A stretch of 32,599 bases of DNA from Chloroflexota bacterium (GCA_019873685.1 JAIOAT010000043.1:1-32599); one strand, 5' to 3'. Shown: positions 2-19,117, numbered from the stretch's first letter. Notes: generated from the sequence alone by a model not told the origin. Translations and numbers: made by a program.

Positions 2-868
2 CAGAAAATACATGACTGGCAGTATCTGGACTGGTCAGATCTCCACGAGAGCGCTCATCGTTTCCTTAAGGAGGATGGAATCCCCCCTATTTATGACGTG
101 ATTCTTGTCGATGAAGCACAGCACTTTGCACCTGCATGGATAAGAACGTTGCGGCATCTCCTGAAACCAGATGGACACTTGTTTCTCTGCGACGATCCCA
201 CGCAGGGAATCTATCGAGCATATAGCTGGAAAGATCGGGGTGTGGACGGTGTTGTTGGCCATACACGTTGGCTCAGAATTCCCTATCGAAATACGCGCCA
301 GATATCGCAGGCTGTGTTCTCACTGCTACAAGATCAGCCTGAATTGGTCGAAATACTCAGAGAATCTGGTGAGTACTTATCAGTTGATCTCTCTGATCCG
401 CGCCTACGCGACGGGCAATTGCCGGAGGTTCACCTTTTTGAGACAAATACGGAACAGCACGAGTACTTCGCGGCTGTGATACAGAAACTGGTTGAACAAG
501 GGATTATGCCTAGTGAGATTGCGGTGCTGAATCCGAGAAAACATGTGATTGACAAGTACGAGAAACATAAACGGCATACTGTAAGACAAGTTGTCGCATT
601 GGCAACCAACAACCAGACAGGAGTGGAATACCGGGCTGTGATTATACCTTGTGTAGAGGAGTACTTCAGTCGTGATACTTCCGTCTCCTTTGCGCAAAGC
701 ACCCTACGAAATTTGCAGCGGTTCTTTGTAGCGGCTACCCGTGCGCGAGACATCCTGATTATCGGCGCACAGATTGACCGCTTTCCAAGGGAGTTACTTG
801 CACTGAAAGGCAAGGTGAAGTGCATCGAGCACAGACAGTTGTCAGAAACTGTCTGCTCTGAACAGTAA
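2..868 (+). CDS. UvrD/Rep-type superfamily 1 helicase, C-terminal part (5' end outside window)
   Basis: The reading frame is open from the left edge, so the gene starts upstream and the ATP-binding Walker A motif is not in view. The visible part holds a Walker B motif (ILVDEAQHF, from about base 101), motif III (LCDDPTQGIY), a Y-R-N-T-R-Q-I segment typical of motif IV, and a C-terminal motif VI (FVAATRARD) with the arginine expected to contact ATP. This is the layout of UvrD-like 3'-5' DNA helicases, particularly the stand-alone or NERD-fused kind often found near restriction genes. Base composition is poorer in GC than the genes to its right, which is consistent with transfer. A 236-base gap separates it from the Mrr gene, so membership in the same transcript is unproven. 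The helicase assignment is firm; the cellular role is not visible. Confidence 0.85.
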   Translation, partial: QKIHDWQYLDWSDLHESAHRFLKEDGIPPIYDVILVDEAQHFAPAWIRTLRHLLKPDGHLFLCDDPTQGIYRAYSWKDRGVDGVVGHTRWLRIPYRNTRQISQAVFSLLQDQPELVEILRESGEYLSVDLSDPRLRDGQLPEVHLFETNTEQHEYFAAVIQKLVEQGIMPSEIAVLNPRKHVIDKYEKHKRHTVRQVVALATNNQTGVEYRAVIIPCVEEYFSRDTSVSFAQSTLRNLQRFFVAATRARDILIIGAQIDRFPRELLALKGKVKCIEHRQLSETVCSEQ

Positions 869-1104: not shown

Positions 1105-2304
1105 ATGGCCACCAAACCGAGTGTTCATGTGCTGCACTATCCGACCTATCGCAGCGCGCGTATGTTCCTGTCGTTGATGGAAGGGCAATCGCGCCGCACC
1201 CTGTTCGATATGCGCGCCACGATCGACAGCCAGCGGGGGACGCCCCAGGATACGCGAACCTGGGCGAACCCGGACGAATGGATACCTGAGGTTCTGGAGG
1301 GTGAGGAGCGCCGGCTGGCCGAACATCTGTGGCGTGGCTCCCGCGGCCTGGTTAATCCGCGTCACCTGACGGGGGTCTGGTCGCTCTGTTCGTCCTACGA
1401 GCTGCTGGTTCAAGACGATAGCGGTCGGCTGCAGATCACGAGTGCAGGACGGGACTTCCTGGAAAACCCGTTTGGCGAGACGGAGCGGCAGCTGGATTAC
1501 GGCGAGGGGCTGCTGCATCTGCTGGCGATCGTCGCCGAGCATGGCCCCGGCAGGCGCGCGGATCTGCTGCCGCCCTTCACCGAATTCCTGGCCCGCTGTT
1601 CCCGTGTGCTGGCCCAGAGCGCCATCAGAGGGGCCTGGTACGAGCGCATCATCAACCTTGTGAACCGGCAGCTGGTCATGCGGGAAGCCGTCACGTATCA
1701 AATCACCGAAGCAGGGCTTGACTACCTGGAAGCGGTGGCTCCCCTGCTTGAGGAGAAAGAGCTTCCGCCCGTGAGCAGGACGACAACCGCCCTGCGCAGG
1801 CTGCTGGACGAGCAACAAAAGGAAGTGCGCGACCGAATCGCCGAGACCCTCCGCACGATCGACCCCTATCAGCTGGAGAATGTGATCAGTACCCTGCTGG
1901 AAGCGATGGGTTATGAGAACGTGGTGGTCACCAAACGGAGCGGCGATGGCGGCATTGACGTTGTTGGGGACATTCGGGTCGGCATCACTTACGTGCGCGA
2001 AGTCGTCCAGGTCAAGCGTCATCACGGGACAATTCAACGGCCGGTTCTTGATCAGCTACGCGGATCGCTGCATCGCTTCAATGCCAACCGGGGCACGATC
2101 ATCACCACAGGCGGCTTCAGCAAGGGCGCAAAAGATGCCGCTTTTGAGGAGCGGGCTGCGCCAATCACACTGATCGATGGCGATACACTGATCACGTTGC
2201 TCATCGAGCACGAGATCGGCGCCCGCAAAGAGACGATTTCGGTGACCAGGTTTGAGCCGGATGATTTCAAGCCGGAAGAGGAACCGGCTGACGCGGAGTC
2301 CTGA
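1105..2304 (+). CDS. mrr-like: Mrr-type restriction endonuclease
   Basis: Predicted 399-residue DNA endonuclease. The N-terminal two thirds looks like winged-helix DNA-binding material (Mrr_N-like). The C-terminal part from about residue 255 is an Mrr_cat PD-(D/E)XK domain: a helix LENVISTLLEAMGY, then GDGGIDVVGD with catalytic Asp at about 285, then VVQVKRH where Gln302 and Lys304 form the Q-x-K variant typical of Mrr, followed by GTIITTGGFS. Mrr family enzymes usually cut modified (type IV) or otherwise foreign DNA. I chose ATG 1105 because AGAGGAG lies nine bases upstream; in-frame TTG 1015 and ATG 1054 have weaker sites. The stop is 17 bases before the giant helicase gene on the same strand, so it is probably the first gene of that operon. 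No cognate methyltransferase is present. Confidence 0.88.
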   Translation: MATKPSVHVLHYPTYRSARMFLSLMEGQSRRTLFDMRATIDSQRGTPQDTRTWANPDEWIPEVLEGEERRLAEHLWRGSRGLVNPRHLTGVWSLCSSYELLVQDDSGRLQITSAGRDFLENPFGETERQLDYGEGLLHLLAIVAEHGPGRRADLLPPFTEFLARCSRVLAQSAIRGAWYERIINLVNRQLVMREAVTYQITEAGLDYLEAVAPLLEEKELPPVSRTTTALRRLLDEQQKEVRDRIAETLRTIDPYQLENVISTLLEAMGYENVVVTKRSGDGGIDVVGDIRVGITYVREVVQVKRHHGTIQRPVLDQLRGSLHRFNANRGTIITTGGFSKGAKDAAFEERAAPITLIDGDTLITLLIEHEIGARKETISVTRFEPDDFKPEEEPADAES

Positions 2305-2321
2305 CTGCTGAGGGGTATAAC

Positions 2322-5300
2322 GTGGACGCATTTCGCCTGCATCGGAAAGTACTGGAAGACTATCACGACTACGTGACCAGCTTCATCCACATCCGCGATG
2401 AGCGCATCCGGGAGGCGGTGCGGGCGCAGATCGCGGGGGGCAAGCTGTGGCCGGAGCCGCTGCTCCAGCTTAACCCGGCCTACGAACGCGGCGGGACGGT
2501 TGAAGATCTGGTGCGGCAGGGCCACCTGCATGAGGCTATGCGGCTCATCTTCCGCGATCGGGATGGACGCCCGTTCCACCTGTACCACCACCAGGCACAG
2601 GCCATCGAAGCCGCCCGGCAGCGCCAGCCCTACATCCTCACCACCGGCACGGGTTCCGGCAAGAGCCTGGCCTACTTCATCCCGATCGTCGACTATGTGC
2701 TGAAGCACGAGCCGAAACGTCACCGCGTGCAGGCCATCATCGTCTATCCGATGAACGCCCTGATCAACTCCCAGCTGGATTCGATCACCCGTCTGCTGAA
2801 GCAGATGCCGGACTGCCCGGTGCGTGCGGCGCGGTATACGGGTCAGGAGGATGATGACACCAAGAATAGCCTCCAGAGCGACCCGCCGCACATCCTGCTG
2901 ACCAACTATGTGATGCTGGAGTTGTTGCTCACGCGTCCGCATGAGCGCGTGTTTGTAGAGCGGACGCTGGCTGACATTCAGTTCCTGGTGCTGGACGAAC
3001 TGCACACGTACACCGGTCGGCAGGGTGCAGACGTAGCCATGCTGATCCGGCGGTTGCGCCAGCGCTGCGGCAACCCGGAGCTGCTATGCATTGGCACCAG
3101 CGCCACGATGGTCGCCGGGGAAGCGACCCGCGATCAACAGCGGCGGAAGGTCGCCGAAGTGGCCCGCACGTTGTTCGGCGTGACGGTAGACCCGCGCAAC
3201 GTGATCGATGAGACCTTGCGGCCCGCTACAGAGATCGATCTTGTCTTCACTGCTGAAGCCCTGCGGGAGGTGGTGCAGAATGGCCTCCCGGCGGAAATCA
3301 GCCGCGCGGAATTCATCCGCAATCCGTTGGCCGTGTGGGTGGAGCGCACCTTTGGTATTGAGCGCGACGAAAGCGGCTTCCTGCGCCGCCGCAAGCCCAT
3401 TGCGCTGCGGGAAGGCGCGCTCCGGCTGAGTGAATACATCGGCCTGCCGGTCGCCAGGTGCCAGGCGGCGCTCCAGGATGTCCTGCAACTGGGCAACCGC
3501 ATCCGCGATGAAGAGGGCAACCCGGTCTTCGCCTTCAAGCTGCACCAGTTCATCTCCCAGGGGGAAGCTGTCTATGCCACTCTGGAAGATCGGGCGGTGC
3601 GCCACATCACCCTGGAGGGCAGGAGCTTCGCCGCCGAAGGGCGGATGCTCGCACCGCTGGAGTTCTGCCGGATGTGTGGTCAGGAGTACTACCGGGTGCG
3701 CTGGGATCAGGAGGCTGGCAGGTTCGAGCCGTGGACGCCGGGCATCCCCGACGCGGATGGGGACGAGGCGATTGCGGAAGGTTACCTGCTGCTGGACGAT
3801 CCAGAAGCGCCGATCTGGACGTACGAGCGCGAGTCCGAGCTGCCGGACAGCTGGTTCAACATCAGCCAGAAGACCGGCGAGCGGACGAGCATCAAGCAGG
3901 AGTTTCGGGACGCCATCCCGCGTCGGGTTTTCGTCCGACCGGATGGCACGGCGGTATCCCCTGCAGAGGATGGTTCCCTGCCGCCGGGGGCGCAACCGTA
4001 CTGGTTTGTGCCCAGGCCGTTCCTGACATGCCTGGCATGCGGGGTGGTCTACACTCGCCGCGAGCGCGAATTCCGTAAGCTTGCCCGGCTTTCCAGCGAA
4101 GGCCGGTCGACTGCGACCACGCTGCTCAGTATTTCCACCGTCTCGGAGTTGCGTCGGCAGCCTGGCGTGGAGCGGCAGGCAGCCAAACTGCTCTCTTTTA
4201 CCGACAATCGCCAGGATGCTTCTCTTCAGGCAGGGCACTTCAACGATTTTGTGCAGGTGGCGCGGCTACGGGCGGCGATCGCCCGCGCCCTGGAGACTCA
4301 CGAGCGTATTGATCATGCGCACATCGCCGAGTATGTGGTTGATGCGCTGGCGCTCCCGGAGGAGGAGTATGCCAAGGAAGTCGGGGGGACGCCGCGGCTC
4401 AAGCAGGCCAACCGCCATAACCTGATGCGGTACATCGAGTACCAGGTGTACAACGATCTGCGGCGCGGTTGGCGCGTCGTCCAGCCCAATCTGGAACAGG
4501 CCGGGCTGATGCGCATCGAGTATGATGGCCTTGCCGAGACTTGCGCCGAAGAATCCCTGTGGGAGGGGCATCCGGTGCTGGCGGCGGCCAAACCGGAAGA
4601 GCGCCTGGAAGCGACGCACGCCTTCCTGGATTACCTGCGCAAAGCACTGGCGATCCATGTGGATTGCCTGAATCCTGAGTTTCAGCGTAAGCTGAAACAA
4701 TATGTTCGGGCTGGCCTCAAAGAGTTGTGGTCGTTTGATGAGGATGAACGCCTGACCGAATTCACCTGGTTCGTTTTGCCGGATGCGCCGCAGATGCGCA
4801 AAGGCACAAGCGTCTTCAGCCTGTCTCCGGCCACTGCGCTGGGGCGCTACCTGCGGTCGCGGTTCACGTGGTCCGCGCTGCACGAGGACCTGCCCACTAC
4901 GGAATACGCCGCGCTGCTTGACTCTTTTGTGCAGGCCTTGCGGGCAGGGGGATACCTGGAGTACGACGAAGAACTCAAAGGCATCCAGGTGCGGGCGGAT
5001 GCGCTGGTCTGGGTGCGCGGAGATGGTACACCGCCGCCGCCGGATCCGGTGCATTCGCGCTGGATGCGCGATGCCAGAAGTAGATCGGCAAGGGCAGAAA
5101 GTAATGCCTTCTTCAGGCGGCTGTATGGCGAGAAGGCTCACCACTTCGGCCAGTTTGAGGGGCGCGAACATACCGCCCAGGTATCCATGGTCGATCGTCT
5201 CGATCGAGAGAACCGCTTCCGCAGCGGTGAACTGGCCTGTCTGTTCTGTTCCCCCACCATGGAACTGGGCATCGATATTTCCGATCTGAATGCCGTGCAC

Positions 5301-7478
5301 ATGCGGAACGTACCGCCAACGCCTGCCAACTATGCCCAGCGATCAGGACGTGCCGGGCGCAGCAACCAGCCTGCCGTTGTGACCACCTACTGCGCTATGG
5401 GCAACGGTCACGATCAGTATTTCTTCCGTCGTCCCCAGCAGATGGTTGCCGGTGTTGTCGCGCCTCCTCAGATGGATCTTGCCAATGAGGAACTTATCCG
5501 GGCGCATATTCACGCCATGTGGCTGGCACAGGTTGGGCTGTCACTGGGGAATTCCATTTCGGAAATACTGGATGTCGACGGCAAGGGCTACCCGCTCAAT
5601 GACAACGCTGCCCATCAGATCCAGCTATCCGAGAGACGGCTGGAAGAGCTTTTGGGCTATTGCAGGCAGGTATTGGATGACTGTGCACCGGCTATCGACC
5701 GGCAGCGATATTCAGATGAATGGCTGCGCCAGGTTCTCAGAGGTGCGCCGAACGCATTCGACCGTGCTTTTGACCGCTGGCGCGAGATGTATGAGCGCGC
5801 TGAACATCAGATACGACAAGGCGAGACCGCCAGTCAGCGTGCGACCAATCAGAAAGAACGTGATGCTGCTGAGCGATTGCGTAGCGAAGCTGTGCGGCAG
5901 CGCGATCTGTTGCGCAATCTGGAAGGCAGCAATCAAACAGATTTCTATCCCTATCGCTACCTGGCCAGCGAGGGTTTCCTGCCGGGCTACAACTTTCCGC
6001 GGTTGCCGATCCGGGCCTATGTGTCCGCCAGAGGCAAGGGGGAATACGTCTCCCGGTCACGTTTCATGGCTATCCGGGAGTTTGCTCCCCGCAATATCCT
6101 CTACCATGAAGGTCGCAAGCATCGGGTGGTGCGCAGTCAATCAACGAGTGGTGGCCTGGGGGAACGCTTGCGTTCAGCCAAGTTCTGCCTGGCATGTGGC
6201 TACTTCCACGAAGGAGAAGACCTGTACACTGATGTCTGCCAGAACTGCGGAACGACGCTTTCTGGCAACAATTCCTTATTCGTCCGCAATCTTCTGGAAA
6301 TGCAGGATGTGATTACGCACCAGGTAGAGCGCATCACCTGCGACGAAGAGGAGCGGTTGCGTGAAGGTTACAACATTGACACGTATTTTCGCTTCAAACC
6401 GTCCGGGGTCGATAATACCGGCCGGGTAGAGGCGACGGTTCAGCAGGTGGAGGGCGAGTGCCTGCTTCATCTCACCTATGGCGCAGCGGCTACACTGTGG
6501 CAGGTGAACACAGGCTGGAGGCAGAACAGCAACGGCAAAGGCTTCGCTCTTAATGTGCGCACTGGAGAGTGGGTGGGAGGCAGGAATTCGGAAGAGTCTG
6601 AGCCAGAAGCCGATGAGGTGATGCGTGGCATTCAACTCATGGTCTGGGATACTCGCAACATTCTGCTGGTCCGTCCGGGTGAATCGCTTCTCAAACAGAT
6701 TCCCCCGGATACCCTTGAAGCCTTTCTGGCCAGCCTTCAGGCGGCTCTACTCCAGGGTATTCGAGCGGTGTTCCAGGTCGGCGAACGTGAGATCAATGCA
6801 GGCCGGATTGGCCACGGGGATGGACTGGCCATTCTGATCTTTGAGGATGCTGAGGGCGGTCTGGGGGTGCTGGAGAATCTCGTCACCGATCCTCAGGCAA
6901 TCGCGGTCGTCGCAGAAGCGGCGCTGGATGTCTGCCATTTCAACCTGGCTGGTGATGATCTGAGGCCGGCTGATGATATCGAAAATGGTTGCGCCCGGGC
7001 GTGCTATGATTGCCTGATGTCCTATGCCAACCAACGGGATCACCTGATCCTCAACCGGCACTTGTTGCTGGCGCCATTGCAGGCACTGCGGCAGGCCGCG
7101 TCTCTGCGGCGTTCCTCCGAGCGTGACTACACCCAGCAGTATGAATGGCTGCGCGAGCAGACAGATCCTGCTTCCGAGCTTGAGCGCCGTTTCCTGGACT
7201 TTCTGTTTCGGCATCAGCTGCGTCTGCCCACCTATGCTCAGTATAGAATGTCCGATTTCAGTGTCCAGGCCGATTTCATTTATCGGGATGGGAACGGTGT
7301 CACCTGCGTTTTCTGTGACGGCAGCGCCCACGATGACCCTCGCGTGAAAGAACGGGACAATGTCATCCGCGAGCGACTTCGCAATGCTGGTTTTGCGGTG
7401 ATTGTCATCCGTTACGATCGCCCATTTGGCGAACAGGTTTCCCAGTATCAGGATGTGTTCGGAAAATACAATGAATGA
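2322..7478 (+). CDS. Giant DEAD/DEAH helicase with MZB/DUF1998-like module and Vsr-like nuclease tail (DruE/DpdJ/MrfA-like)
   Basis: 1718 residues, starting at GTG 2322 behind TGAGGGG. Order of parts: N-terminal extension; helicase core with Walker A TGTGSGKS (Lys114), DELH box (Asp225) and GTSAT; zinc-type pairs FCRMCG and LTCLACG near residues 450 and 570; second RecA-like lobe with MELGIDISDL and QRSGRAGR near residues 985-1015; a CxxC...CxxC ribbon (FCLACG, CQNCG) near 1290-1315; and a DUF1998/MZB-like region with GCARACYDCL near 1560. The last 100 residues resemble a PD-(D/E)XK or Vsr-fold nuclease: Asp1651 in ADFIY, then VFCDGSAHD (Asp1666, His1670), then a G-F-A-V-I-V-I-R strand. The helicase/DUF1998 architecture is shared by DruE (Druantia), DpdJ and MrfA; the exact subfamily is unresolved. 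It probably acts on DNA together with the Mrr and SNF2 proteins. GC content drops by eye after about 5.4 kb. Confidence 0.88.
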   Translation: MDAFRLHRKVLEDYHDYVTSFIHIRDERIREAVRAQIAGGKLWPEPLLQLNPAYERGGTVEDLVRQGHLHEAMRLIFRDRDGRPFHLYHHQAQAIEAARQRQPYILTTGTGSGKSLAYFIPIVDYVLKHEPKRHRVQAIIVYPMNALINSQLDSITRLLKQMPDCPVRAARYTGQEDDDTKNSLQSDPPHILLTNYVMLELLLTRPHERVFVERTLADIQFLVLDELHTYTGRQGADVAMLIRRLRQRCGNPELLCIGTSATMVAGEATRDQQRRKVAEVARTLFGVTVDPRNVIDETLRPATEIDLVFTAEALREVVQNGLPAEISRAEFIRNPLAVWVERTFGIERDESGFLRRRKPIALREGALRLSEYIGLPVARCQAALQDVLQLGNRIRDEEGNPVFAFKLHQFISQGEAVYATLEDRAVRHITLEGRSFAAEGRMLAPLEFCRMCGQEYYRVRWDQEAGRFEPWTPGIPDADGDEAIAEGYLLLDDPEAPIWTYERESELPDSWFNISQKTGERTSIKQEFRDAIPRRVFVRPDGTAVSPAEDGSLPPGAQPYWFVPRPFLTCLACGVVYTRREREFRKLARLSSEGRSTATTLLSISTVSELRRQPGVERQAAKLLSFTDNRQDASLQAGHFNDFVQVARLRAAIARALETHERIDHAHIAEYVVDALALPEEEYAKEVGGTPRLKQANRHNLMRYIEYQVYNDLRRGWRVVQPNLEQAGLMRIEYDGLAETCAEESLWEGHPVLAAAKPEERLEATHAFLDYLRKALAIHVDCLNPEFQRKLKQYVRAGLKELWSFDEDERLTEFTWFVLPDAPQMRKGTSVFSLSPATALGRYLRSRFTWSALHEDLPTTEYAALLDSFVQALRAGGYLEYDEELKGIQVRADALVWVRGDGTPPPPDPVHSRWMRDARSRSARAESNAFFRRLYGEKAHHFGQFEGREHTAQVSMVDRLDRENRFRSGELACLFCSPTMELGIDISDLNAVHMRNVPPTPANYAQRSGRAGRSNQPAVVTTYCAMGNGHDQYFFRRPQQMVAGVVAPPQMDLANEELIRAHIHAMWLAQVGLSLGNSISEILDVDGKGYPLNDNAAHQIQLSERRLEELLGYCRQVLDDCAPAIDRQRYSDEWLRQVLRGAPNAFDRAFDRWREMYERAEHQIRQGETASQRATNQKERDAAERLRSEAVRQRDLLRNLEGSNQTDFYPYRYLASEGFLPGYNFPRLPIRAYVSARGKGEYVSRSRFMAIREFAPRNILYHEGRKHRVVRSQSTSGGLGERLRSAKFCLACGYFHEGEDLYTDVCQNCGTTLSGNNSLFVRNLLEMQDVITHQVERITCDEEERLREGYNIDTYFRFKPSGVDNTGRVEATVQQVEGECLLHLTYGAAATLWQVNTGWRQNSNGKGFALNVRTGEWVGGRNSEESEPEADEVMRGIQLMVWDTRNILLVRPGESLLKQIPPDTLEAFLASLQAALLQGIRAVFQVGEREINAGRIGHGDGLAILIFEDAEGGLGVLENLVTDPQAIAVVAEAALDVCHFNLAGDDLRPADDIENGCARACYDCLMSYANQRDHLILNRHLLLAPLQALRQAASLRRSSERDYTQQYEWLREQTDPASELERRFLDFLFRHQLRLPTYAQYRMSDFSVQADFIYRDGNGVTCVFCDGSAHDDPRVKERDNVIRERLRNAGFAVIVIRYDRPFGEQVSQYQDVFGKYNE

Positions 7479-10329
7479 CTATCAACCTGGCTCAATAGTC
7501 TCGCTACGCGACCGTGACTGGATTGTGCAGCCTTCTGCCTCGCCGGATGTGATTGAACTACGCCCTTTGATCGGCGGCGACCAAGAGAAGCTCAAAATCT
7601 ATCGACGGCTGGCACTGGAAATGCCTGAACCGGCAACCTTTCCGTTGCCAGATTCCCACTATCCGGGTGACTTCTCATCGGCCCGGTTGCTCATGGATGC
7701 AGTGCGGCTGAGTCTCCGCAGCGGAGCCGGTCCTTTCCGGTCCCTGGGTCAGATTTCTGTCCGCCCCAGGCCATATCAGTTTGTCCCCCTGATGATGGCT
7801 CTGCGTCATGAGCCAGCCGTCCGTATCCTGATTGCAGACGACGTGGGGATTGGCAAAACGATCGAAGCGGGCCTGATCGCTCGTGAACTCTATGACCGGG
7901 GTGAAATCCAACGCCTTGCTGTGCTTTGCCCACCTTATCTGTGTGAGCAATGGCAACAGGAACTCCAGGAGAAGTTCCACCTGCCGGCGGTGATTGTGCG
8001 TTCCGGGACGATTTCGCGACTTGAGCGCGAGCTTCCTCGCCAGGATATGAGTATCTTCCAGTACTTCACCTGCATGGTGATCTCCATCGACTACGCCAAA
8101 GCGGAGCGTCGACGGGACAACTTTCTACTCCATGCCCCGGAATTGATCATTGTGGATGAAGCCCATTCGGTTGCACGTCCTGCTGGGCGTTCGATCTCAC
8201 AACAGCAGCGCCATGAACTGGTGCATGAACTCGCCAAAAAAGCGGAACGCCACCTCATCCTCCTCACGGCAACGCCCCACTCAGGGATAGAGGGATCGTT
8301 CAAGTCACTTCTGGGCCTGTTGAAGCCTTACTTTGAGGAATGGGATACGGCTAACCTCACTGAACAGCAACAGATCGAACTGGCGCGACACCTGGTACAG
8401 CGACGTCGTGCTGACGTTAAATCCTGGCTGGGGGAGGATACGCCATTTCCGGAGCGTAATTCCCGTGAGGTTGCCTATGCACTTCATACTGAATATCGGG
8501 CGCTGGCTGAGGATGTGTATCGTTTTGCCAGCGAGATTGTCCGCACCGGTGAAAGCCTGAGCGGGTTCAGCCGGCGCGTACGTTATTGGACGGCGCTGGC
8601 GTTGATGCGCTGTGTCATGTCAAGCCCTGCTGCGGCTGAGGCAGCGCTGGAAGGGCGCGCGAGACGGCTTGACGATCAAGAAGGTGGCGAACCTGACGAT
8701 ACCTTCTTCAGTCCCTATATCTACGATGCCCCGGATGCCGAGTTTGCTGTTATTGACGTATCACCATCGTACGTTCTTGATCAGGGTGAACTGTCGCTGC
8801 GGAGCAGTGAACAGCGCAGACTCCGTGAGTTCGCTGATCGTGTGCGGAAACTCCGTGGTGACAAAGATACCAAGGTTGAGTCCCTGGCAGCGCTAGTAGC
8901 CGAGCAACTCCAGAAAGGTAACGATGTCATTGTTTATTGCCGCTATGTTGCTACTGCAGAGTATGTGGCCGCAGAACTCAACCAGCGTCTGGAGAGACAT
9001 GCACCGAAGGCGCGGATCATCGCGGTAACGGGTACACTGAGTGAAGATGAGCGGCGCGCGCGAATCCTTGAGCTGGCTGAGTCCGAACAGCGTGTGCTGG
9101 TTGCTACAGATTGTTTGAGTGAGGGAATCAATCTGCAGGATTGGTTTAACGCCGTTATCCATTATGACCTGCCCTGGAATCCCAATCGTCTTGAGCAACG
9201 AGAAGGTCGTGTAGACCGGTTTGGTCAGGCCAACCCTCGTGTGGACACCATCCTGCTATACGGCAAAGATAACCCGATTGACGGCAAAGTCCTCGACGTG
9301 CTGATTCGCAAAGCCATTGAGATTCGCGACCGACTTGGCGTCACGGTGCCGGTCCCGGTGGAAAGCGAGTCTGTTGTCGAAGCCGTTGCTCGTTCACTGT
9401 TCTTCCAGGATCACAGAAATCCAGAACAACTTGAGCTACCCGGGATGGAAGCGACGCCATTTGAGCGCATCGAGGAGGTTCATAGACGCTGGTATGCCAG
9501 CGCCGAACGAGAAAGGGAGAACCGGACACGGTTCGCGCAGCGTGGCATAAAGCCAGAGATGGTCGCTGCAGAAATTGAGGCTGTGGACCACGTGCTGGGT
9601 GATCCCCAAGCGGTTCAGCGCTTTGTGTTGACGGCCTGCCAGCGACTCGGAATCCATCTCATTAAAAGTCGGGCCGGTTGGAAGCTGAGTCCGGAGGCGA
9701 TACCACAGGGTATTCTAGGTGAGCAGCTTGGGCTGGCTTCGCCGATAACGATGGCGTTCACAAGCCCAGCCCCACAGGGCGCCGAATATGTCGGAAGACA
9801 TCACCGGATCACGGTTGCACTTGCCGAGCACATCCTTTCCACTGCATTGACGGGTTCCGATGGGGCAGTCCCTGTTGCGGCGCGATGTGGCGTACACCGC
9901 TCAAACATGGTGGCACGGCAGACCACAGTGTTGCTTTTGCGCCTGCGTTACTTGATGCATGAAGCGCGAGCGCCACGGGATATTATGGCTGAGGAATGCA
10001 TTGTCGCGGGCTATCGCAAGGATGACAACCGTGTAGAGTGGCTGCAGTCCGCAGAGGCCAAGGCGTTAGTGGAGGCAACTATTCCGCAAGGCCAGTTGAG
10101 TAGTCTTGACATTCACCGGAGACTCGAAAGCGAACTAGCGTTCATCCAGCAGGCAATGTCGCAGGAAATTGCGCAGATCGCTGAACGTCGTGCCCGGGAC
10201 CTGCTGGATGCACATCGTCGTGTGCGTCAAACCGTACAACTGGGAAGTATCTCTGTAAAGCCGGTGTTGCCTGTTGACGTGATCGGGGTCTACATCCTTG
10301 TGCCGATGCCGACTCTGGGCAATTCGTGA
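7471..10329 (+). CDS. SNF2/RapA-type superfamily 2 helicase (DrmD/DpdE-like)
   Basis: 952 residues if started at ATG 7471, which overlaps the end of the upstream helicase gene by eight bases (ATGAATGA), a sign of translational coupling. An in-frame start at 7402 would lie deep in the upstream gene and is less likely. The N-terminal region begins with a short SH3-like stretch (PGSIVSLRDRDWIV). The core has Walker A ADDVGIGKTIEAG (Lys129), the DEAH box at Asp229 and LLTATPH. The C-terminal lobe has VATDCLSEGINLQ and NRLEQREGRVDRFGQ, the hallmark of SNF2/RapA translocases. DrmD of DISARM and DpdE of the deazaguanine system have this architecture. The extra C-terminal 300 residues are not recognised. 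Its direct coupling to the DUF1998 helicase suggests a joint complex. Confidence 0.87.
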   Translation: MNDYQPGSIVSLRDRDWIVQPSASPDVIELRPLIGGDQEKLKIYRRLALEMPEPATFPLPDSHYPGDFSSARLLMDAVRLSLRSGAGPFRSLGQISVRPRPYQFVPLMMALRHEPAVRILIADDVGIGKTIEAGLIARELYDRGEIQRLAVLCPPYLCEQWQQELQEKFHLPAVIVRSGTISRLERELPRQDMSIFQYFTCMVISIDYAKAERRRDNFLLHAPELIIVDEAHSVARPAGRSISQQQRHELVHELAKKAERHLILLTATPHSGIEGSFKSLLGLLKPYFEEWDTANLTEQQQIELARHLVQRRRADVKSWLGEDTPFPERNSREVAYALHTEYRALAEDVYRFASEIVRTGESLSGFSRRVRYWTALALMRCVMSSPAAAEAALEGRARRLDDQEGGEPDDTFFSPYIYDAPDAEFAVIDVSPSYVLDQGELSLRSSEQRRLREFADRVRKLRGDKDTKVESLAALVAEQLQKGNDVIVYCRYVATAEYVAAELNQRLERHAPKARIIAVTGTLSEDERRARILELAESEQRVLVATDCLSEGINLQDWFNAVIHYDLPWNPNRLEQREGRVDRFGQANPRVDTILLYGKDNPIDGKVLDVLIRKAIEIRDRLGVTVPVPVESESVVEAVARSLFFQDHRNPEQLELPGMEATPFERIEEVHRRWYASAERERENRTRFAQRGIKPEMVAAEIEAVDHVLGDPQAVQRFVLTACQRLGIHLIKSRAGWKLSPEAIPQGILGEQLGLASPITMAFTSPAPQGAEYVGRHHRITVALAEHILSTALTGSDGAVPVAARCGVHRSNMVARQTTVLLLRLRYLMHEARAPRDIMAEECIVAGYRKDDNRVEWLQSAEAKALVEATIPQGQLSSLDIHRRLESELAFIQQAMSQEIAQIAERRARDLLDAHRRVRQTVQLGSISVKPVLPVDVIGVYILVPMPTLGNS

Positions 10330-10339
10330 GGCAGGTATC

Positions 10340-10376
10340 CCTGATTATGGTGACGAGACTGTCACTGATCAGGTTT
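10340..10376 (+). terminator. Hairpin closing the Mrr-helicase operon
   Basis: Eleven bases after the SNF2-helicase stop, CCTGAT (10340-10345) pairs with ATCAGG (10368-10373), and inside it GTGAC (10350-10354) pairs with GTCAC (10361-10365). Only three T follow, so termination strength is uncertain. Confidence 0.45.
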
Positions 10377-10600: not shown

Positions 10601-11077
10601 ATGACTGCTCAAATCCATGAATGTCTGATCTTGGACGGCGAAGAAACCTCAATGGCCTTTTGCCCGCCCTTGCCAAAAGGTCATCCGCGTATTATCGAGG
10701 CAGACATCGATAAATCTGATGATCTAGTCCTGTATTCTACGGCCTGTTGGCGAGGCTACCAGGGAACATGGGAAATCAGAGATGGGCGCTTCTATCTGGT
10801 GGGGCTTCGGGGGCGTTTCAGATTATTGGGAGAAGAACCGCTCCTGGCAGACTGGTTTTCCGGAACTATTCGTATTCCGAGGGGGGAGCTTCTGGTATAC
10901 GTCCACATGGGTTTCGGGTCGGTTTATGAACAAGAGCTTCACGTGAGGATCATCAAAGGTGAGGTCGTTGCGTCGCGGATTATCGACAATCGTGGGCAAA
11001 CGTTTGATCGATGGGACCTCGGCTGGCGTAACATGCCGGGAGGTGAGAATCGATTCCCGGGAGACGATGACTGGTGA
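10601..11077 (+). CDS. Conserved small protein of unknown function
   Basis: 158 residues, soluble, with no signal peptide or membrane segment. ATG 10601 follows GGGGAG by eight bases; an in-frame GTG at 10592 overlaps that site and is less likely. The sequence carries a W-R-G-Y segment followed by TWEIRDGRFYLVGL, then ADWFSGTIRIPRGELL and YVHMGFGSVYE. From memory this pattern occurs in a widespread uncharacterised bacterial family, sometimes encoded next to toxin or defence genes; I cannot name it. It is acidic near the C-terminus (GDDDW). It is separated from the helicase operon by about 270 bases containing a terminator-like hairpin and nothing else I recognise, and it has its own terminator, so it is probably a separate transcription unit. 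The function is unknown. Confidence 0.75.
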   Translation: MTAQIHECLILDGEETSMAFCPPLPKGHPRIIEADIDKSDDLVLYSTACWRGYQGTWEIRDGRFYLVGLRGRFRLLGEEPLLADWFSGTIRIPRGELLVYVHMGFGSVYEQELHVRIIKGEVVASRIIDNRGQTFDRWDLGWRNMPGGENRFPGDDDW

Positions 11078-11207
11078 ACCGCTCCGACAAACTCGACCGA
11101 GATATTCTTATCGAGTTATTCCAGTTACTGTTACCCTAGCTTTTCTGGTGCAGGAGGGCGAAGGGCGGTTTCGCTGGAGTAGTTGCCTGGCTAGCAATGG
11201 CCAAGAT

Positions 11208-11249
11208 GAGGGCGCCTGGTGTTGTACCACGCCGGGCGCCCTCGTTTTT
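11208..11249 (+). terminator. Rho-independent terminator
   Basis: A perfect nine-base stem, GAGGGCGCC (11208-11216) with GGCGCCCTC (11235-11243), is followed by G and five T. It lies 130 bases after the small-protein stop and faces the convergent glycoside hydrolase gene. The reverse strand has no T run, so it serves plus-strand transcription. Confidence 0.85.
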
Positions 11250-11280
11250 GTTTCTATACACTGCCTATTCCAACAAGCCC

Positions 11281-12447
11281 TCAAAACAGGCAGTTCTCGC
11301 GCACCAGCCGGGCCATCTCGTAGGCAAAGCGGCGGATGGCGTGGATATCGCGCTCCTCTTCAGGCTGGGCGCGCCAGATGGCGATCCTTGCGCTGGGCGC
11401 ATCCCACATGGGCACCATCTCCGCTGCCTCGAGCAGGTTCACACAGTACTCCGCCGCCTCAAGAATGTCATCGGTAGTCTTGGGTTTCTGCATGAACAGG
11501 GTGGTCTGCTCCACCCGGAGCGCGTCTTCCACGGCCTTGACGGCGCGGTAGGCATGCCCTTCTTTGTTGGCGTTAACCAGAATGCGGCTTGCCGTGCGGT
11601 TGCGGAAGAAGCCAAATAGCGCGGCGATCACCGATGGGTCGCGGATCGTGCCGTCGGGGTATACCAGCCCGTGGATATCCCCCCAGAAGCCTTCGCTGAC
11701 CAGGTTGAAGAGGTAGAAGCCGATGCGATGCTTGTGCAGCAGCTCCAGCTCCACCTCATAGGGATTGGCGCGGCCAACGCAACCGGTCTCCGTGTTGAGG
11801 ATGGGCTTTCCCCATTCCGTGCCCATAGCTTCAGCGGCAAGGATGGCGTCCTCGATCTGGCGGCGGGTGGGGAGGTAATCGTGGAAGGAGATGACATCCA
11901 CCAGATCGTTGGTTGATGCGCAGTGCGGCACCGCCTCGTGCCCGACGGTCATACAGCCGTCGGGATCGCAGCGGCGTACAATCTCACACAGCCGGCGCAC
12001 GTAACGGCGGATGTTGTCAAAGCGCGCCTGGTATTCTTCCGCCGGGCCGTGGTGCATGTAGTCGTTACAGAATGGCTCATTGATGACATCCCACATCAGG
12101 ATGAAAGGCTCATCCCGGAAGCGCTCAATGAACGCTCTGGCATAGGCTTCGGCGCGGGCATACCACGCTTCATCGGGGTCGCTCCATTCGCGGATGAAGT
12201 TGCCATTCCACAGGATCGGCATACTGGACAGGCCGTAGCGCCACGCTGTGCGCATAAAGTGATCCAGCGTGTCAAAGTAGGTGTCCCCCTGCTGCTCCCA
12301 GGTATCCATGTTCATCCAGAAGCGGAGGGAATTCAGCTGCAATCGCTGGCAATACCCCAGTTCGCGTTCCAGTTGCTCCTGCCCGCGCTGGGGGCGGGGA
12401 TTGTGGCATACGCCACGGATATGCGAGTAGTCTTTCAATGGTTGCAT
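11281..12447 (-). CDS. Clan GH-A glycoside hydrolase (cellulase/GH5-like)
   Basis: 388 residues, no signal peptide, so probably cytoplasmic. The fold signature is a TIM-barrel glycosidase: LQLNSLRFWMNMDTWE early, then LMWDVINEPF around residue 120, whose Glu in N-E-P is the expected acid/base, and ILNTETGC near residue 216, whose Glu is the expected nucleophile. GYLP-like VISFHDYLPTRR and an aromatic F-W-G-D segment suit a sugar cleft. ATG 12447 is preceded at seven bases by GGAGG, which decides the start over an upstream in-frame GTG. It is transcribed divergently from the GH4 gene across a 350-base spacer. The substrate is not readable from the sequence; the neighbours point to plant oligosaccharides that have already been imported. 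GH5 is the closest guess, but another GH-A family is possible. Confidence 0.8.
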   Translation of the reverse strand: MQPLKDYSHIRGVCHNPRPQRGQEQLERELGYCQRLQLNSLRFWMNMDTWEQQGDTYFDTLDHFMRTAWRYGLSSMPILWNGNFIREWSDPDEAWYARAEAYARAFIERFRDEPFILMWDVINEPFCNDYMHHGPAEEYQARFDNIRRYVRRLCEIVRRCDPDGCMTVGHEAVPHCASTNDLVDVISFHDYLPTRRQIEDAILAAEAMGTEWGKPILNTETGCVGRANPYEVELELLHKHRIGFYLFNLVSEGFWGDIHGLVYPDGTIRDPSVIAALFGFFRNRTASRILVNANKEGHAYRAVKAVEDALRVEQTTLFMQKPKTTDDILEAAEYCVNLLEAAEMVPMWDAPSARIAIWRAQPEEERDIHAIRRFAYEMARLVRENCLF

Positions 12448-12481
12448 ACGTCTGCCTCCGGCAAGTTCGGTCACAGGCCCT

Positions 12482-12511
12482 GTTGTAGTTCAAGGGCAAC
12501 GGAAATGCCAA
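12482..12511 (-). promoter_or_regulatory. Candidate promoter of the GH-A hydrolase gene
   Basis: Read on the minus strand: TTGGCA (12511-12506), an 18-base spacer, then TACAAC (12487-12482). It lies about 35 bases upstream of the start codon. Both boxes deviate slightly from the vegetative consensus. Confidence 0.4.
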
Positions 12512-12672
12512 ATTGTGCCTGTGCCCCGGTGAATCAGGGCATTAGCATTGCTCGCAGGGAGAGCGATGTCTATTCACCTGTGCGTACGCCCGGCGGAGGG
12601 CAACCCTGACCTTGCTGTGGAACATGGCCTGCGTCGATTGTCTCCCGGCCGTAGGTGCGCGTACGGGACCTT

Positions 12673-17227: not shown

Positions 17228-19117
17228 CTAATCCATCGGCACCCAGACGCGCATCGGGCCGGTTCCCCGGTTGCCCCACTGGTGGTAGGGGACAAAGCGC
17301 AGTTCCACCGGCCGGCGCGGTAGGACGCTGGCGACATGATGCGGCAGGTAGAGCCGGTTCTCCCAGGCGCTCAGGTCCGGCAGGAAGCCGTACCCGCTGA
17401 TCAACACAGTGCCGCCCAGGAGGTCGGGGCGCGGCTCCACCTCAAAGGCCGTATTGGGGTCAAGCTGGGCCTGTAGCACATGAGCCGCTTCAGGCTGGTC
17501 GATCCCTTCCAGGCAGTACACCAGCGGCCCGCGCTCCAGGGCCAGCGCCCCGCGGCTGGATGACACGTACGGGTGGGCGCGCATGAGCCGGGGAGCCATC
17601 GGCAGCTCCAGCGTGATCACATCGCCGCTTTGCCAGCGCCGCGCCAGGAGCAGGTAGCTTTCCTCAAGGACGGCTTCGACGGGCTGGCCGTTCAGCTGCA
17701 CCCGGGGCGCACTGCACCAGTCCGGGACGCGGAGCCGCAGCCGCCAATCGCCGCTTCCGACGTCATCGACCGTGATCCTGACCGTGCCTTCCCAGGGGTA
17801 AGCCGTCTCCATCGTCAGGTGAACCGGCCCCACTTCCGGGATGTCGGCGGCGATGGCGGCTCCGGCGTACTGATGCACCTGCAGCTCTCCGACGCTGACC
17901 GTGACCAGGTAGCGGTTGAGCGAAGCGATCAGGCGCATGACATTGGGCGGGCAACAGGCGCACTGGAACCACGGCTGGCGGACATGCGCTTCCCGCACCA
18001 ACAGCGGGTTGACGTAGAAAAAGGTCCTACCATCCAGGGAAACGCCGCTCAGGAAACCGTTGTAAAGCGTGCGCTCGATCAGCGCGGCGTAGCGCGCTTC
18101 GCCGGTGACCCGCAACATGCGCCAGTTCCACATGATGCTGGCGATGGCCGCGCAGGTCTCGCAGTAGCCGGTGTCATCGGGGAGTTCGTAGGGTTCGCCA
18201 AAGGCTTCGTCGAAATGGCGTGCGCCGGCGCCGCCGGTGATGTACATCTTGTGGCTGGTGAAGTCATGCCATTGCCGGTGCAGGGCGTCCAGCAATGCCT
18301 GCTCGCCGGTCTCCAGGTAGAGATCGGCCATGCCGGAGGTCAGGTACATGGCGCGGACGGCGTGGCCTTCCACACGGTCGTTGTCACGCACGGGCACGCG
18401 ATCCTGATAGTACGACGGGCTGAAGTAAGCCCAGCCTTTCATCGTGTTCTTGCCGCGCTCGTTGATGAAAAATTCCGCCAGCGCCAGGTAGCGAATCTCG
18501 CCTGTCTCGCGGTACAGCTCGATCAGGGCCAGTTCTACGCCCTGATGGCCGGGAGCTTCCTCCCGCTTGCCCTTGCCAAATACGGTATCGATGTGGTCGG
18601 CGAAGCGACAGGCGATATCCAGCAGCCGCCGGCTGCCGGTGGCGCGGTGATGAGCTACGGCGGCTTCGAACAGGTGCCCGGCGCAGTATAGCTCATGATC
18701 ATGCGCTTCGTTCGTCCAGCGGTTTTCCGGCTTGAATTTGATCTGGTAGTAGCTGTTGATGTAGCCGTCTTCCATCTGAGCGGCGGCGATGAGATCGATC
18801 GCGGCGTCGACCTGCTGGCGGAGGGCTGGATCGTCCGCTTTGGCCAGTTCGTAGGAGGCCGCCTCCAGCCACTTGTAGACGTCTGAATCCTGAAAGCGCA
18901 TGCCCCGATGTTCGCCGGATTTCATCCCGGCGGCGATGCGCAAGTTATCCAGCGCCCCGGATTCCTCCAGCATGGCAAAGCCATGGGGCAGGCTGTTGTG
19001 GCGGTTGACAGCCTGCTTGTCCTTCCAGAATCCGGCCTGGATATCCACGGCGGTCAGGGGCAGCGCGTGCAGGCGCTCAAAGTGACTCACATGCATTTGA
19101 CCGGGTAGGGTGACCAT
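17228..19117 (-). CDS. GH127 family beta-L-arabinofuranosidase
   Basis: 629 residues, no signal peptide, therefore intracellular. It shows the HypBA1-type active site: GYCETCA with Glu320 and Cys322, and CACCPPN with Cys388 and Cys389, the zinc-binding Glu-Cys-Cys-Cys set in which Cys388 corresponds to the nucleophile. Glu304 in FDEAF sits 16 residues before Glu320, exactly the spacing of the acid/base Glu322 to Glu338 in HypBA1. An alpha/alpha barrel (YINSYY, ELYCAGHLFEAA, NDRVEGHAVRAMYL) precedes beta-sandwich domains. The family releases L-arabinofuranose from beta-linked arabino-oligosaccharides, including those on plant hydroxyproline. I prefer ATG 19117 (AAGGA eight bases upstream) over ATG 19126, which abuts the ribosome site. 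It lies downstream of, and on the same strand as, the AraC gene. Confidence 0.92.
   Translation of the reverse strand: MVTLPGQMHVSHFERLHALPLTAVDIQAGFWKDKQAVNRHNSLPHGFAMLEESGALDNLRIAAGMKSGEHRGMRFQDSDVYKWLEAASYELAKADDPALRQQVDAAIDLIAAAQMEDGYINSYYQIKFKPENRWTNEAHDHELYCAGHLFEAAVAHHRATGSRRLLDIACRFADHIDTVFGKGKREEAPGHQGVELALIELYRETGEIRYLALAEFFINERGKNTMKGWAYFSPSYYQDRVPVRDNDRVEGHAVRAMYLTSGMADLYLETGEQALLDALHRQWHDFTSHKMYITGGAGARHFDEAFGEPYELPDDTGYCETCAAIASIMWNWRMLRVTGEARYAALIERTLYNGFLSGVSLDGRTFFYVNPLLVREAHVRQPWFQCACCPPNVMRLIASLNRYLVTVSVGELQVHQYAGAAIAADIPEVGPVHLTMETAYPWEGTVRITVDDVGSGDWRLRLRVPDWCSAPRVQLNGQPVEAVLEESYLLLARRWQSGDVITLELPMAPRLMRAHPYVSSSRGALALERGPLVYCLEGIDQPEAAHVLQAQLDPNTAFEVEPRPDLLGGTVLISGYGFLPDLSAWENRLYLPHHVASVLPRRPVELRFVPYHQWGNRGTGPMRVWVPMD

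Follow-up and report, generated by a model that had tools for sequence, protein, structure and literature searches.

A probable ARMADA Type I antiphage island divided by contig ends in a Chloroflexota draft genome

The window analyzed here is an entire contig, C43 (32,599 nucleotides), of a Chloroflexota draft genome of 4.12 Mb in 109 contigs. Its base 1 falls within a gene for a UvrD-family (SF1) helicase, of which the C-terminal part is present (2 to 868, plus strand). Full-length relatives have frames of about 670–715 amino acids, so ∼400 residues are missing from the window copy, and because the contig's left end cuts this gene, the left neighborhood is missing too. There follow on the same strand an Mrr-type restriction endonuclease (1105 to 2304), a YprA helicase (2322 to 7478), and a SNF2 helicase (7471 to 10329), separated by a 17-base gap (Mrr/YprA) and joined by an 8-base overlap (YprA/SNF2), as the original prediction had described them. 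That prediction also had the module end at a hairpin. A hairpin does follow SNF2, at ∼10340 to 10373, but it does not stand out from shuffled sequence (z −1.0) and lacks a T tract. The strong intrinsic-terminator-like hairpin is at 11203 to 11248 (plus strand; z −6.7), at the right edge of the island described below and 3′ of a 158-amino acid ORF that belongs to no known Pfam family and lies within that island (10601 to 11077, plus strand). With a GC content of 49%, against ∼60% in Mrr and YprA, the UvrD-like gene seems to have had an origin separate from theirs. A GGGGAGT-type repeat occupies positions 900 to 960, between UvrD and Mrr.

Mrr enzymes cut DNA with foreign methylation. The gene in the window runs from an ATG at 1105 to a stop at 2304, and its longest ORF begins with a TTG at 1015. 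A profile search confirmed the predicted nuclease (Mrr_cat domain, E 5e-29), and the protein matched the PADLOC PDC-S02 profile over nearly the whole length (E 1e-127). The catalytic motif GDGGID/QVK is intact, with D311, D315, Q332, and K334 invariant among 27 homologues, so that the catalytic domain with D...D...QxK expected of a Type IV restriction enzyme of the PDC-S02 family is present. PDC-S02 is normally a single-gene system, whereas here Mrr abuts other defense genes.

The YprA gene starts with GTG. Its product was predicted to be a DUF1998 helicase-nuclease, and we found an SF2 core (DEAD and Helicase_C domains) and a DUF1998/MZB region, the MZB match (E 9e-5) lying just under the curated cut-off. 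The best PADLOC match was DruE, and the helicase motifs (TGTGSGKS, DELH, and SGRAGR) and zinc cysteines are intact. A first Foldseek search with the nuclease region gave weak matches (best E 0.035). A structural model of the C-terminus (pLDDT 84) matched the Vsr endonuclease 1cw0 (Z 8.5, rmsd 2.5, 91 aligned residues; VIA-align), and the Vsr active-site motif is conserved; the Vsr-type domain occupies residues ∼1615–1715. The window protein aligned over its full length with seven relatives. It shows the combination expected in ARMADA Type I, a YprA helicase with OB-CON-DUF1998 and a C-terminal Vsr nuclease. A Vsr-type C-terminal nuclease has been reported for ARMADA YprA (Bell et al. 2025 preprint, PMC12458937). 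In residues 265–650, where ARMADA Type I would have a BrxA-like domain inserted after RecA1, the model (pLDDT 71) gave only weak winged-helix matches (best Z 4.6).

The SNF2 gene starts with ATG and encodes the predicted SNF2-rel_dom and Helicase_C domains, with motifs GIGKT, DEAH, and REGRVDR intact. Its best PADLOC matches were DpdE and DrmD, and BrxH/RapA profiles also matched. A BrxHII/RapA-like (ArmA-like) SNF2 gene adjoining YprA, as in ARMADA Type I, is therefore present. The expectation of a defense module with helicases of the DISARM/Druantia/Dpd type holds.

The module had also been thought to lack a modification gene. This holds for the window, which contains no methyltransferase, but not for the genome. 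As for the absent METHYLTRANSFERASE, the best methyltransferase match within this genome lies on another contig, C67 (18,096 bases), where it extends in frame from 14191 to the contig end. It encodes a PglX/DrmMI-like N6-adenine methyltransferase, 1302 amino acids of it up to that end, with Eco57I/N6_Mtase domains, an NPPW motif, and DPAAGSG rather than DPACGSG as motif I. A second methyltransferase, on contig C44, was discounted as a partner because it shows only about 30% identity and sits on a long branch.

A genome of the same genus (G001) that has no YprA relative bears on how the two contigs are related. Positions 8166–14014 of C67 match G001:C12:48624-42767 (91%), and window positions 11264–12532 match G001:C12:42764-41496 (92%), as does most of the window beyond. 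On G001:C12, the two parts adjoin with 2 bases between them, which places the right boundary of the island at window position 11263/11264. The intervening sequence, C67:14015-18096 together with C43:1-11263, has no counterpart at the G001 site. Because this empty site flanks both contig pieces, the simplest reading is that the C67 methyltransferase and the defense genes of the window mark opposite ends of a single island at one chromosomal site, although two separate insertions at that site are conceivable. A PglX-like methyltransferase is present in the same genome, across this empty site from the window genes, on a contig not physically joined to theirs: we found no bridge between C67 and C43, either as an exact end overlap or as shared 31-mers. 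At least the UvrD N-terminus (about 400 amino acids), which we did not identify, and the methyltransferase C-terminus (about 80 amino acids) fall in the gap between the two contigs. A question of this kind can be decided without new sequencing when a sister genome carries the empty site.

Phylogeny agrees with this arrangement. The C67 methyltransferase is 55% identical to that of a Poribacteria locus (L048) with the order methyltransferase-X-YprA-...-SNF2; the YprA of L048, one of the closest to the window protein, groups with it. The maximum-likelihood trees join the C67 methyltransferase to L048, the cyanobacterial plasmids, and the L082 clade, the subclade in which the window YprA and SNF2 are also found. 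Support for some of these forks is only moderate (81/85 in the case of the methyltransferase). Identity ranks of the window YprA and the C67 methyltransferase agree across 28 loci (Spearman 0.67). In a YprA tree that leaves out the ARMADA, Druantia, and TALON reference sequences of PMC12458937, the window protein groups with loci bearing SNF2 and PglX-like genes. By tblastn, seven genomes of the same order carry a full-length YprA relative (41–43% identity), and in all seven, YprA is followed by SNF2 and then by a DrmMI/PglX-like methyltransferase. Within the sequence covered, both partners were present at 30 of 62 related YprA loci, many of the others being cut by contig ends.

The recurring set is the core of ARMADA Type I: YprA, SNF2 (BrxHII), and a PglX-like methyltransferase (Bell et al. 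2025, PMC12458937). The locus shares with it a YprA with C-terminal Vsr nuclease, a RapA/BrxHII-like SNF2, and, on the separate contig C67, a PglX-like methyltransferase. It differs in carrying Mrr and UvrD genes and in its probable order, methyltransferase-[UvrD, Mrr]-YprA-SNF2, which is neither of the two given in the text of that preprint (YprA-BrxHII-PglX and BrxHII-PglX-YprA). ARMADA Type II has the three core families in common with our locus, and both have a UvrD-family helicase nearby, but Type II has a strict order and closes with a RelE-GajB-like helicase, ArmD (PMC12458937); no such gene follows YprA or SNF2 in the window, where the UvrD fragment instead precedes YprA, lying between it and the methyltransferase. 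DISARM Class 1 also combines a DrmD-like SNF2, a DrmMI-like adenine methyltransferase, and a YprA-type helicase. Here, however, the YprA core and DUF1998 region form one protein rather than a DrmA/DrmB pair, the nuclease is fused to YprA, and no DrmC PLD nuclease was found among the window genes scanned (the assembly gap lies outside this view). The large helicase scores best against DruE profiles, yet no other Druantia gene was seen in the window, and its partners are a methyltransferase and a SNF2 protein. Dpd 7-deazaguanine synthesis and insertion genes and the TALON NERD nuclease, TPR-CSD, and TBP genes were likewise not found among the window genes scanned; moreover, the C-terminus of TALON YprA is an inactive RNase H, in contrast to the Vsr-type domain here.

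We conclude that the genes in the window very probably form the downstream end of an ARMADA Type I antiphage island that the draft assembly broke over two contigs. The complete island would read methyltransferase (C67:14191 to end), unassembled gap, UvrD-like, Mrr, YprA-Vsr, SNF2, small ORF, and terminator. The original prediction of a gene set matching no known system does not stand, as its core is that of the 2025 preprint (PMC12458937). Its apparent novelty arose because the contig end hid the left neighborhood, where, as the prediction had itself allowed, the missing genes of a standard system could lie: the methyltransferase is on C67, at the left side of the same insertion. The methyltransferase-free reading is an assembly artefact. 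GGGGAGT-type repeats, found in the window and at the C67 end, may have caused the two breaks. What is new is minor, namely the permuted gene order and the Mrr accessory: ARMADA Type I gains a documented member with both, and a false “methyltransferase-free” system is removed. A contig end, then, can imitate a new defense system.

If the locus works as its characterized relatives do (ARMADA Type II, DISARM, and BREX), host DNA would carry a mark set by the methyltransferase, and incoming DNA without that mark would be processed and cut by the two helicases, SNF2 and YprA with its Vsr nuclease. ARMADA Type II is reported to give direct, non-abortive protection, for which both the motifs of the helicases and the NPPW motif of the methyltransferase are required (PMC12458937). 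Mrr would probably act as an accessory Type IV enzyme cutting DNA with foreign modification, rather than as the switch between self and non-self.

The tight spacing of Mrr, YprA, and SNF2 and the absence of a methyltransferase from C43 are what a new three-gene system, discriminating by Mrr recognition of modified DNA, would predict. We consider such a system very improbable: empty-site synteny places the C67 methyltransferase across the same insertion, and the set that recurs is YprA-SNF2-methyltransferase. Nor did the trio turn up elsewhere, an outcome that the original prediction had said would count against it. With a profile built from 26 relatives and the window's own protein, we found Mrr beside YprA at 0 of 62 related loci, drawn from genomes of the same order, from the wider phylum, from other phyla, and from plasmids, and Mrr-YprA-SNF2 at none but ours. 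The Mrr family, for its part, stands alone in the same order. Of 300 genomes of the order and class, 46 have a match to the PADLOC profile with E 1e-30 or better, and in about 20 of these the match spans most of the profile. At 20 loci of the order and class where Mrr is complete or nearly so, neither YprA nor SNF2 lies alongside; Mrr relatives on plasmids also had neither beside them. An ARMADA locus degraded by a repeat insertion that breaks the methyltransferase at its 3′ end, leaving the helicases and Mrr as relics or re-purposed, is a more serious alternative that we still judge unlikely. Just before the contig end, the methyltransferase does contain a repeat-rich insertion and another ORF start, and its last ∼80 residues, sought elsewhere in the assembly, gave only weak matches. 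The frame, however, stays open through the insertion to the contig end; in a related methyltransferase (L086), the protein continues past an insertion at this very position; and YprA, SNF2, and Mrr each remain intact and keep every motif. Given the insertion, the activity of the C67 methyltransferase is uncertain.

Between methyltransferase and YprA, other loci carry an OLD-like gene (L092), a PDDEXK_4 nuclease (L052), GmrSD_N (L110), or a UvrD-like gene (L096), and this space is likely a variable slot of ARMADA loci. Since Mrr is absent from related YprA loci, its family stands alone, and the slot holds other genes elsewhere, we favor the view that the window Mrr is an accessory Type IV nuclease occupying that slot. 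A precedent for a Type IV enzyme next to an ARMADA-like cassette is McrBC, which a Nocardioides plasmid carries in the order YprA-SNF2-methyltransferase-McrBC and whose link to such cassettes has been noted (PMC11090510). Mrr and UvrD might instead be functional parts that add a second sensor, for modified DNA, to the same operon, as McrBC may elsewhere. The 17 bases that separate Mrr from YprA on the same strand, the genes held in the slot at other loci, and the McrBC precedent make this a possibility worth entertaining, if a tentative one, against which stand the lack of a second locus with Mrr, the related loci that do without it, and the differing base composition, which suggests that UvrD and its neighbors arrived separately. 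More doubtful is the specific proposal that Mrr, and perhaps UvrD too, is a working part of one operon restricting both unmarked and wrongly modified DNA, with the slot swapping Type IV and other nucleases between lineages.

Several smaller observations concern the individual genes. In C67 (L159), a GGGGAGT-type repeat interrupts the methyltransferase near its 3′ end (17900–18096) and is followed by the apparent start of another ORF, GDPSIQSYRDLRV, which we take to resemble four-helix-bundle proteins; at locus L164, a four-helix-bundle gene adjoins the methyltransferase. Varied defense or toxin-antitoxin genes lie between methyltransferase and YprA at L052, L092, L096, L110, L164, and L165. 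In one genus (L217–L234), PDC-S02-type Mrr occurs in a fixed chromosomal neighborhood, about 212 amino acids-Mrr-234 amino acids-795 amino acids, as if it were resident rather than mobile. Viral contigs yielded no Mrr relative and four YprA loci, all without Mrr. Finally, four loci (L083, L084, L104, and L108) carry YprA-Vsr genes with neither SNF2 nor a methyltransferase nearby; some of them adjoin housekeeping genes (ketoacyl synthase, DNA polymerase III delta′, phosphomannomutase, UbiA), and they are possibly orphan versions with a different role.
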